Positions 2,080 to 4,055 of a stretch of DNA of 64,000 nt are shown piece by piece. The first letter of the stretch is position 1; each line of letters opens with the position of its first letter. The stretch comes from Desulfobacteraceae bacterium. Its GTDB lineage: Bacteria > Desulfobacterota > Desulfobacteria > Desulfobacterales > SURF-7. The stretch is taken from NCBI GenBank assembly GCA_003599865.1, contig QZKS01000052.1, positions 50,162-114,161 on the forward strand, read 5' to 3'. Both the position numbers and the translations under genes were made by a program. The notes under the pieces are model-generated. The model made no database searches. It saw nothing but the letters and a program-made list of their open reading frames with translations, and was not told where the DNA came from.

Positions 2080-3684
2080 TTATTCCGGCAAAAAACAGAA
2101 AGGATCTTTATCTTGAAAAACATTCAGGCCATAGCTGTAAATAACCGCCAGGCATCCCCTGCAGACAGGATTCAGGCTGCAATCCCGACAGGCTTGACTG
2201 CCTCTCCGATATTTTCCGGCAAGATCGGAATGATAAATATCAAACAGGGATTGCCGTCGGATATTGCCGATCAGTGAAGGAAACTTGCGGCAGGCATGAA
2301 CCTCGCCGTCCGGAAGCAGCGAAACAAAATTAAATGCCGCGCCGCATCCATACCCGGTGCATCCGCCGAAAAAAGCCGCCTTTTTTTCTTGCCGGATAAT
2401 ATTGATCAGGTTGTCCTTCAGACCCAGTATCGGATTGGTCTCTGCTGCTTTTTCATATTCATGCAAAAAGGAGATGAATGTTTCCTTTTCCGGCATTAGA
2501 AGATCTTTGCCCTCCCCGATGGTGGAAAGCCGGTTGAACGTGAAAAAATCCGCGCGATCCCGGAGCAGTTCCCCCAGAGGAAGAACCTGATCCAGATTAT
2601 CCCGGGTCAGGGTCAGCATGACCATGCTGTAAATATCCATCTTCCTGAGCTGATCCAGAAAGGCAAGAGACCGGATGAAATGGCCTGTTCCCCGGATATA
2701 ATCATTGTGTTCTGCCAGTCCTTCCAGACTGATCTGAAAAAAAAGGGGCTTTGTTTTCTCAAAAATTTTTTCCATCTGCGCTTCGGGGGTGGGGTTTCCC
2801 AGTATGGCCACGCCAAAACCCCTGTCCGACGCATCCTGATACAGCCTGAGAAAATGCGGATATAAAAGCGGATTCCCTCCGGTAAAGGTGACCTGCCCTC
2901 TCACATTCATCCCGCGACAAAACCCGTAAAAATCATCCAGAACGGCAAGAGCCGCGTCATAGGTCATGGGATGTCTCTCGCTGCGGTCATAACAGTGCCT
3001 GCAGTGAAGATCGCATGTCTGGGTGATGTGCCACTGGAGTGTGAAAATATCGGCGGATTGGAATGGTTCCAGTGTTTCCGAAGGTCGGGACGGAATAGAA
3101 ATATCCCTTTGAATCCGGGAGGGGGGCGATAAAAGGATGCCCTGCACAACCGCTCTTTTCAATGCGCTTTGAATGGCCTTGACGGATGTCCGGCCCATTT
3201 TCGAAGCTTCCCGCGGGTCAATCTCCTCAACGACAATCTTCAAGGCCAGGAGATCGATATCCAGCGCTTCACGGATATGAAACTCCCTGGTTATCGGATG
3301 ACGCCAGATCATGACATGGACCGGGGAGGCCTCCGGCTGCGGGCAGGGATCTTTGTTGAAATCACCTGCGAAAATGGCTGCCAAATGCTTCCAGGAAACC
3401 GGAATCAGGGAGAGGGTCGGATTGACCGTTATCGTTTCAGGCGTTTTCCCGGAATCGGCATCCTCCGTCCGTATCTGGTTCACTTTCCATTCCAGGCGGG
3501 CAAGATCATCAATGTATTCCGGCAACGGAATGGATGCTTTCAGAGACGCCAGTGCATCCGGGAACATCCGCGGCTCCGGATGGGTATCCAATGCCGCCAG
3601 CACCCTGTCCCAGGTTTCCTTGCCAAGGATGCGGCGGCAGTTGGAAAAGACAGATTGAACCTTTTCATTACAAATACCGGTCAC
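2080..3684 (-). CDS. sbtM: Radical SAM peptide maturase, SbtM-like (selenobiotic/thio(seleno)oxazole system)
   Basis: 534 residues. The radical SAM cluster motif CDLHCRHC has Cys224, Cys228 and Cys231, followed by the SAM-binding TGGNP at about 268-272. The C-terminus carries a SPASM-like auxiliary Fe-S region: GGCTGYGCG, HACRKFP, and CRDCSLNPVCRGC with Cys499, 502, 508, 511 and a last Cys530. The N-terminal about 210 residues have no obvious domain and may recognise the precursor. The gene starts with GTG at 3684; a TGA lies three codons upstream in frame, so no longer start is possible. It follows sbtA (3765-3992) by 80 bp on the same strand, and this pairing is the main reason for the name. 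The expected role is post-translational modification of the Sec-containing SbtA peptide; the chemistry is inferred from the family name only. Confidence 0.85.
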   Translation of the reverse strand: MTGICNEKVQSVFSNCRRILGKETWDRVLAALDTHPEPRMFPDALASLKASIPLPEYIDDLARLEWKVNQIRTEDADSGKTPETITVNPTLSLIPVSWKHLAAIFAGDFNKDPCPQPEASPVHVMIWRHPITREFHIREALDIDLLALKIVVEEIDPREASKMGRTSVKAIQSALKRAVVQGILLSPPSRIQRDISIPSRPSETLEPFQSADIFTLQWHITQTCDLHCRHCYDRSERHPMTYDAALAVLDDFYGFCRGMNVRGQVTFTGGNPLLYPHFLRLYQDASDRGFGVAILGNPTPEAQMEKIFEKTKPLFFQISLEGLAEHNDYIRGTGHFIRSLAFLDQLRKMDIYSMVMLTLTRDNLDQVLPLGELLRDRADFFTFNRLSTIGEGKDLLMPEKETFISFLHEYEKAAETNPILGLKDNLINIIRQEKKAAFFGGCTGYGCGAAFNFVSLLPDGEVHACRKFPSLIGNIRRQSLFDIYHSDLAGKYRRGSQACRDCSLNPVCRGCLAVIYSYGLNVFQDKDPFCFLPE

Positions 3685-3740
3685 AATATCTCATCTAGAA
3701 CTGTAAATGTCCGTTACCCTTTTGTGGGAGGCTGAACCCT

Positions 3741-3757
3741 ACACGCAAACTGCGTGT
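3741..3757 (-). promoter_or_regulatory. bSECIS-like hairpin 3 of sbtA (in the 3' UTR)
   Basis: On the minus strand ACACGCA pairs perfectly with TGCGTGT around loop GTT. The stem begins at nucleotide 17 from the T of the third TGA (T at 3773). Because the stop codon follows one codon after that TGA, this hairpin lies entirely beyond the coding sequence. An outer helix is also possible: GGCTGAA (containing the TGA itself) with TTCAGCC at 3729-3735. Confidence 0.75.
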
Positions 3758-3764
3758 GAATGGA

Positions 3765-3992
3765 CTAGCTTCAGCCGCTTTTGGCGGGTTTCTCGTCTTT
3801 CACATCCTCGTCGGTGCCACCGGCACCGGAAGAGCCGCCGCTTCAACCGCTTTGGGAGCTACCTGCTCCGTTTTTTTCGCCGCTTCAGGCGCTCTTACCG
3901 GACGAGCAGCCGTCCAGAACGAACGTAGATCCTGTGATCAGGCCGGCAACACAGAAACCTGCAAGGATCTTTTTCAAGTCTTTGACTTCCAT
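3765..3992 (-). CDS. sbtA: SbtA-like selenopeptide precursor with three in-frame UGA (Sec) codons
   Basis: Standard translation stops after 35 codons. Reading three TGA codons as selenocysteine gives 75 residues ending at TAG (3765-3767). ATG at 3992 follows AGGAGATCATT. The leader MEVKDLKKILAGFCVAGLIT resembles the SbtA leader (charged start, then a Gly/Ala-rich hydrophobic stretch). The core is Ser/Gly-rich, with Sec at 36 (3885-3887), 50 (3843-3845) and 74 (3771-3773). Each Sec is followed by Ser and the contexts are AUSG, GUSG and GUS-stop. Hairpins suited to SECIS function follow every TGA at nearly the same distance (separate entries). The adjacent maturase SbtM supports the call. Sec insertion and modification are inferred; the selenocysteine machinery is not in this window. 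Confidence 0.9.
3812..3828 (-). promoter_or_regulatory. bSECIS-like hairpin 2 of sbtA
   Basis: On the minus strand CGGTGCC pairs perfectly with GGCACCG around the 3-nt loop GGT. The stem begins at nucleotide 18 from the T of the second TGA (T at 3845) and lies inside the coding sequence (Ser-Gly-Ala-Gly-Gly-Thr region), so it constrains both codons and RNA fold. Confidence 0.75.
3855..3869 (-). promoter_or_regulatory. bSECIS-like hairpin 1 of sbtA
   Basis: On the minus strand GGAGC pairs with GCTCC around the loop AGGTA. The stem begins at nucleotide 19 counted from the T of the first in-frame TGA (T at 3887). The loop contains GGU, the apical feature recognised by SelB in bacterial SECIS elements. 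The spacing is a few nt longer than in E. coli fdhF, within the range reported for bacterial SECIS. Confidence 0.7.
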
Positions 3993-4055
3993 AATGATCT
4001 CCTATCAGGTTAGAAGGTGAGGTGCTGCTTTTCCCCCCTGGGCAGGGGCTCATGA

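Follow-up and report, generated by a model that had tools for sequence, protein, structure and literature searches.

A predicted three-selenocysteine SbtA precursor gene next to sbtM in a Desulfobacteraceae genome, with a conserved candidate SECIS hairpin after each UGA codon

The sbtA gene and its predicted product

The locus raises the question of whether a short frame with three in-frame UGA codons beside a radical SAM maturase gene is a working gene in which every UGA is read as selenocysteine (Sec), and what its product might become. The window, i.e., the whole analyzed stretch of 64,000 nucleotides, carries this frame directly upstream of sbtM on the minus strand, and sequence translation placed it at 3992-3765, from the ATG at 3992 to a TAG at codon 76 (3767-3765). 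The initial annotation had reported an ATG with a good ribosome site, a 35-codon leader, TGA at codons 36, 50, and 74, and TAG at codon 76, all of which were recovered as described and assigned to the minus strand, together with the AGC directly 3' of all three TGA codons.

3999..4003, minus strand: ribosome binding site AGGAG, 6 nt 5' of the ATG (sequence; GGAG invariant in the 14-gene alignment)
3765..3992, minus strand: sbtA, 75 codons, UGA at 36, 50, and 74, stop TAG (TIGR04081, 47 bits, cut-off 30.5)
3906..3992, minus strand: leader, residues 1-28, hydrophobic, plus Cys29 (VLDGC), a probable secretion or lipoprotein signal (TIGR04081 match, lipobox pattern)
3885..3887, minus strand: UGA codon 36, predicted Sec (frame; kept in 13 of 14 clade genes)
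3843..3845, minus strand: UGA codon 50, predicted Sec (frame; kept in 13 of 14 clade genes)
3771..3773, minus strand: UGA codon 74, predicted Sec, one sense codon 5' of the TAG (frame; kept in 14 of 14 clade genes)
2080..3684, minus strand: sbtM, radical SAM/SPASM maturase (TIGR04082), GTG start as listed (720 bits, cut-off 350)

The predicted peptide, MEVKDLKKILAGFCVAGLITGSTFVLDGCSSGKSA-U-SGEKNGAGSSQSG-U-SGGSSGAGGTDEDVKDEKPAKSG-U-S, matched TIGR04081 over residues 1-26 in a profile search (47 bits versus 30.5) and continues, as in the SbtA family, into a Ser/Gly-rich core with Sec in S-G-U/C-G/S-type motifs. Membership of the SbtA family, claimed from the first, was borne out by this match and by the 720-bit SbtM (TIGR04082) adjoining it, and the three selenium sites proposed for the core stand as predicted ones (S-A-U-S, S-G-U-S, and S-G-U-S, with Ser rather than Gly after each Sec). 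The peptide had no Pfam match up to an E value of 10; PF27804 is a precomputed Pfam family on the matches of the frame in protein databases, and the Pfam copy searched here gave no such match.

The SbtA family and its link between UGA and SECIS are already known, and the window gene is a further member. With the described SbtA/SbtM thio(seleno)oxazole RiPP (“selenobacteriocin,” TIGR04081/TIGR04082; Lewis 2021 via PMC13188914 and PMC11002830) it shares the leader model, the adjoining radical SAM/SPASM maturase, and UGA followed by a SECIS. It differs in having three predicted Sec where the family is tabulated with two, in its S-A-U-S and S-G-U-S sites (PMC13188914), in a leader with a lipobox-like Cys, and in a third candidate SECIS outside the coding region. 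The preferred reading, with a probability of about 0.87, is that the gene encodes an SbtA precursor in which UGA 36, 50, and 74, each with a conserved hairpin, are all predicted to be decoded as Sec via SelB and Sec-tRNA, SbtM likely converting each into a selenooxazole. Every UGA would be served by a SECIS of its own, with SelB, attached to the loop 20-21 nt past the UGA, bringing in Sec where the ribosome would otherwise stop. The gene is a real and probably working SbtA-family member that carries three SECIS and three predicted Sec codons, and as such no surprise to SbtA experts; the parts worth testing are a peptide imprint of the hairpins, a distance rule for UGA pairs, and a secretion-like leader. 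These three and the three-Sec mode are new as far as the literature search reached; the literature found made no mention of a secretion signal or three Sec for SbtA, and Lewis 2021 and Haft & Basu 2011 might contain either.

Candidate SECIS hairpins

3855..3869, minus strand: hairpin 1, GGAGC-AGGTA-GCTCC, loop after 20 nt (folding, alignment)
3812..3828, minus strand: hairpin 2, CGGTGCC-GGT-GGCACCG, loop after 21 nt (folding, alignment)
3741..3757, minus strand: hairpin 3, ACACGCA-GTT-TGCGTGT, wholly 3' of the stop codon, loop after 20 nt (folding, alignment)

The hairpins that had been annotated behind every TGA, with stems beginning at nucleotides 19, 18, and 17 (counted from the T of TGA) and loops AGGTA, GGT, and GTT, were exactly reproduced. 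The bSECIS model comprises a loop of 3-9 nt, a stem of 4-16 bp, a G in the first two loop positions, a spacing of 16-37 nt, and a minimum free energy (MFE) of at most -7.5 kcal/mol (PMC13188914). The window hairpins agree with it in their loops (5, 3, and 3 nt), stems (5, 7, and 7 bp), G within the first two positions of all three loops, UGA-to-loop spacings of 20, 21, and 20 nt, and MFE of the UGA plus 39 nt (-9.3, -17.6, and -10.8 kcal/mol; hairpin 1 taken alone, -7.0 kcal/mol); they differ from it in that three occur in one 75-codon gene and two are imprinted in the peptide, as GAGSS and GAGGT.

Of 2577 TGA triplets, counted over the two strands of the window, 35 passed a single hairpin filter, among them all three sbtA UGAs, and the chance of three of three passing was ~2e-6 with an energy limit (-7.0) that was chosen after the hairpins were known and equals the energy of hairpin 1. 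Synonymous resampling gave p values of 0.027 (hairpin 1) and 0.021 (hairpin 2), base shuffling gave 0.006 for hairpin 3, and the earlier statement that three spaced hairpins are hard to obtain by chance was upheld by the filter and the resampling. Local fold stability was ordinary against shuffles (z of -0.58, -1.12, and -1.87); the case for the hairpins rests on position, loop, and conservation, not on energy. Folding of the three windows, as had been suggested, placed each hairpin in a locally favored fold, and in the fold of the whole 284 nt hairpins 1 and 2 belonged to the minimum-energy structure and hairpin 3 to the centroid only. Rfam gave no score near a gathering threshold at the sbtA locus. 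On the plus strand, hairpin 1 (3855-3869) is followed by a T-run and has a terminator-like score, which is probably incidental.

Conservation among close relatives

The nearest SbtM among the matches listed (74% identity) belongs to L096, a MAG labeled Desulfosudis oleivorans, and the SbtA of this closest named relative aligned with the same three UGAs. Frames in relatives were not broken elsewhere: within 14 clade genes, window included, UGA1 and UGA2 were each kept in 13 (Cys in L108, from the cultured relative Desulfospira joergensenii, and Ser in L099, respectively) and UGA3 in all 14. Purifying selection acts on the codons behind each UGA: clade dN/dS was 0.155 for the leader, 0.202 from UGA1 to UGA2, 0.280 from UGA2 to UGA3, and 0.261 for the stretch past hairpin 2.

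When the three hairpins of the window were mapped onto the 14-gene alignment, 99.6% of 238 cells in the window and its 13 relatives were paired, against 93.3% in shuffles (0 of 500 as high) and 48.3% in the best slid version. Double changes were present at 7 of 17 pairs, four of them in hairpin 3, outside the coding region of the window gene. Hairpin 1 showed one-sided changes only, as a conserved peptide would lead one to expect, and the number of further pair types, one of five covariation measures, was unremarkable (61 of 500 shuffles). The conserved hairpin after each UGA leads to the prediction of Sec decoding at all three; that all three UGAs are read as Sec, as the initial annotation had proposed, is supported as a prediction by these hairpins, by the purifying selection, and by the presence of selA to selD.

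A decayed frame, or one of which only the 35-residue leader is made with the UGAs as stops and the hairpins incidental, would accord with the near-absence of full-length versions from protein databases. A search of 5.8 billion proteins returned four matches to the window frame, two spanning 97% of it or more with other residues at the internal UGA positions and two ending at the first UGA position; the search covered close relatives of similar length, and leader-only entries are invisible in it because proteins below ~41 aa were no candidates. This sparse record also fits a gene cut or missed by ordinary callers, as had been expected of sbtA. Decay is considered very improbable in view of the purifying selection after each UGA, of hairpins that are conserved and in part covary, of the three UGAs shared with L096, and of SbtM in all 37 genuine SbtA genomes.

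Selenium machinery

All of selA, selB, selC, and selD, which had been named as genes to look for, were present in the genome of the window, with selA, selD, two selB above the cut-off, and two tRNA-Sec(UCA) (selC), on contigs whose tetranucleotide composition was within the range of eight other sampled contigs of the assembly. SelB occurred in 75 of 77 phylum genomes examined and its presence here is therefore weak evidence. The selenium machinery was accordingly rejected as a discriminator within the phylum, selB being found in 38 of 39 SbtM-bearing and 37 of 38 SbtM-lacking genomes (the latter chosen by the authors from 356 without SbtM above the cut-off). The discriminating comparison is between genomes with all-Cys SbtA (L111, L121, L159, and L167; an in-frame UGA without hairpin ends the L111 and L167 frames) and those with UGA-bearing SbtA. 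SelB was present in 17 of 18 UGA-SbtA genomes and none of four all-Cys ones (p 0.0007), and tRNA-Sec in 15 of 18 and one of four (p 0.046), in the genomes of 22 of 80 loci, which were chosen by the authors and are partly MAGs of unstated completeness; p values on such family comparisons are guides rather than true probabilities because relatives share descent.

The selD gene (L094, G000:C17) contains one in-frame TGA and is itself likely to encode a selenoprotein. A second, divergent selB (L091 9738-11770, G000:C38) is 29% identical to selB1 of the window's genome, and the second tRNA of this genome has a discriminator base that, by eye, is apparently not G. The divergent selB with an adjacent tRNA-Sec-type gene was also found in G072:C31, G161:C1, the genome of L097 (G401:C31), and G029:C11, where the tRNA carries anticodon GCA, a Cys codon reader. 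A role of this cassette as the SbtA decoder found no support, the cassette occurring in G072 and G161 without an SbtA match and lacking from most SbtA genomes.

SbtA across the phylum

TIGR04081 matches were obtained in 39 of 395 phylum genomes, of which two, in G176 and G305, were set aside as false because they came with neither a UGA motif nor an SbtM above the cut-off. SbtM above the cut-off was likewise found in 39 of 395 genomes, including all 37 with genuine SbtA (37 of 39 if the two dropped matches were kept); G129 and G289 have SbtM without an SbtA match. The retrieved stretch around the SbtA gene contained sbtM in 40 of the 45 genuine cases and lacked it in the other five. About one in ten genomes of the phylum sample (37/395) therefore has SbtA genes, yet these are poorly represented in protein databases.

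Among 46 peptides (window included, false matches dropped, and three hand-trimmed where TGA reading had gone beyond the likely stop), four had no UGA, four had one, 16 had two, 19 had three, and three had four. Three predicted Sec is the commonest number in the phylum sample and hence ordinary for SbtA, and the three richest peptides reach four predicted Sec over a length of 107-129 residues, compared with the 2-3 Sec of a small subset that makes up the richest selenoprotein families, where SbtA is tabulated with two (PMC13188914). Selenoprotein P also has many Sec per chain, with 10 UGA in human and mouse (PMC5133445), but is eukaryotic and uses two 3'UTR SECIS for all UGAs, as opposed to one hairpin per UGA here.

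Of the UGAs in 113 distinct genes, 139 of 179 internal and 86 of 97 terminal ones were followed by a hairpin with its loop at 16-24 nt, compared with two of 46 Cys codons, and UGA and Cys interchange in the same S-[GSA]-[UC]-[GS] motif across relatives. The 40 internal UGAs without such a hairpin were mostly the first of UGA pairs, in a Nitrospirota group, or in over-read tails. The Nitrospirota SbtA genes (L112, L125, L134, L149, L162, and L172), whose internal UGAs lack a hairpin at 16-24 nt and whose six genomes all have SelB, may use another SECIS form. One geometry fitted 144 of 188 internal windows, which were picked for 5 of 6 pairs so that their percentage paired is by construction; in them the wobble bases track their partners, with C or T at nucleotide 30 opposite G and T opposite A, and mutual information between wobble nucleotide 18 and nucleotide 28 of 1.04 bits (shuffle maximum 0.12).

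Peptide imprint of the hairpin

A motif G/S-A-G/V-S/G-T/A lies ~6-10 residues past Sec and looks like a conserved core repeat. It was found after 133 of 179 internal UGAs, one of 97 terminal UGAs, and one of 46 Cys (internal versus terminal, Fisher 3e-37, relatedness ignored). Terminal UGAs mostly keep the hairpin, placed at or past the stop, and because the motif is nevertheless missing there it is best read as the translated RNA hairpin rather than a substrate motif. The imprint is readable because the hairpin of each internal UGA also codes; in the window it appears as GAGSS and GAGGT and is missing after UGA 74, the third hairpin, beyond the TAG, adding no residues. Such an imprint could help to find multi-Sec genes.

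UGA pairs and the reading of UGA 74

The family contains 33 in-frame UGA pairs at most 6 codons apart, 29 of them with one common hairpin. For 11 core pairs the shared hairpin was 26-35 nt from the first UGA and 17-20 nt from the second. The first UGA also has another hairpin in G202, at 16, and a weaker one, at 13 or 14, in G300 and G301. For 18 terminal pairs it was 16-23 nt from the first UGA and 8-15 nt from the second; the residues past this second UGA are mostly unconserved, for which reason it is presumably a stop. Distance thus splits presumed Sec (at least 16 nt) from presumed stop (at most 15 nt) in the 29 pairs, with Sec and stop labels assigned in this analysis and 11 of the 18 terminal pairs from one clade, and the 16-nt border agrees with the published range of 16-37 nt. 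In L098, L103, L104, and L105 a TAA directly follows the second UGA, which could thus also be Sec, and L108 has a weak additional hairpin at 19 from the second terminal UGA. The remaining pairs had their own hairpin each (G195 and G240) or none found (one of two in G318; L172). The UGA-Ser-UGA ends of the family, such as UGA-AGC-UGA in L102 (Desulfosarcina alkanivorans, a cultured relative), offer natural sequences for testing how ribosomes distinguish between UGA as Sec and UGA as stop. In G195 and G240 (L041 and L050), the tip of the hairpin belonging to the first of two terminal UGAs is formed by the second UGA and the stop codon, with the T of the UGA in the stem and the rest in the loop, so that this hairpin must be unwound during decoding before the last UGA is read.

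The presumed stops bear on whether Sec is inserted in the window at UGA 36 and 50 only, with UGA 74 a true stop and hairpin 3 a leftover or in another role. Reading through UGA 74 gains just two residues, and since in 18 terminal pairs the second UGA seems to be a stop, UGA probably does end translation in the SbtA family. On the other hand, 98.8% of the clade cells of hairpin 3 are paired and four of its six pairs show double changes, although it does not code in the window, and UGA3 is kept in every clade gene. A correctly spaced hairpin accompanies terminal UGAs in 86 of 97 cases, and Cys is found near the same end in L111, L121, and L159, three of the four relatives with all-Cys SbtA. A stop at UGA 74 is accordingly judged improbable, and all three UGAs are preferred as Sec codons.

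SbtM and the predicted chemistry

Cys 224, 228, and 231 of SbtM (CxxxCxxC) and nine more Cys were invariant in 12 sequences, window included. In vitro, an SbtM acting on a peptide other than the SbtA of the window caused a loss of four hydrogens with both Cys- and Sec-containing substrates, and the product from Cys was assigned by NMR as a thiooxazole (PMC11002830). By analogy, SbtM would oxidize each Sec of the window, together with the preceding carbonyl, to a selenooxazole, the same oxazole chemistry being expected at all three sites, and the neighboring enzyme would likely make the peptide a selenium-containing natural product. A three-Sec peptide without oxazoles, exported as a plain Sec/Cys metal or redox peptide and modified otherwise by SbtM, is considered unlikely. 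It would suit the S-A-U-S and S-G-U-S sites, which differ from the SGUG tabulated for the SbtA family (PMC13188914), and the oxazole chemistry is known from one SbtM, via a review (PMC11002830). On the other side, the window SbtM scores far above the equivalog cut-off, and S-G-U-S and S-G-U-G occur together within single peptides (e.g., G088 and G339).

No recurrent exporter or peptidase gene was found among ORFs of at least 80 aa at 80 loci and the window, where only SbtM was widespread (77 loci). ORFs antisense to sbtA aside, the next cluster was a GGDEF protein (12 loci), and an RND-pump-like protein, recognized by eye, occurred at five; five smaller neighbor clusters were named by Pfam, four giving a match. 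The system looks like a two-gene one without its own exporter or peptidase, and general secretion with signal peptidase would be the simplest route because no exporter gene recurs nearby.

Secretion-like leader and likeness to bufferins

All 113 family leaders had a strongly hydrophobic 12-mer. By a PROSITE-like lipobox pattern, 51 had a strict lipobox, 10 a relaxed one, 24 AxA, and 28 none; the window belongs to the relaxed group, the Asp before Gly-Cys in VLDGC (D at -2) failing the strict form. The first 28 residues might form a secretion signal of lipoprotein type with Cys29, and the modified 47-residue peptide might be exported to the periplasm for soft-metal binding or redox work.

Bufferins are copper-binding peptides that bear thiooxazoles formed from Cys and are made with a secretion signal; such signal peptides are, according to their authors, highly unusual among precursors of bacterial RiPPs (PMC12452194). 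SbtA likewise has predicted oxazoles from Cys-type residues in a peptide with an apparent secretion signal, but bufferins are made by MNIO enzymes from Cys, whereas SbtA carries Sec and is served by a radical SAM maturase, and the likeness is one of working only. A true bufferin was rejected, no bufferin domain being found in the SbtA peptide by Pfam search and the maturase being radical SAM/SPASM, not MNIO. More tentatively, and with rather more doubt than confidence, SbtA might be the selenium counterpart of bufferins: a radical-SAM selenooxazole peptide with a general secretion signal, often with a lipobox, in place of a classical RiPP leader, which would be a lipid-anchored or free periplasmic soft-metal binder, and in whose family the distance of UGA pairs from one hairpin (at least 16 versus at most 15 nt) would alone decide between Sec and stop. 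In the MAG of L106, codon 29, the position of the lipobox Cys, is a UGA without a hairpin at 16-24 nt, which is either a sequence error or Sec at the lipidation site.
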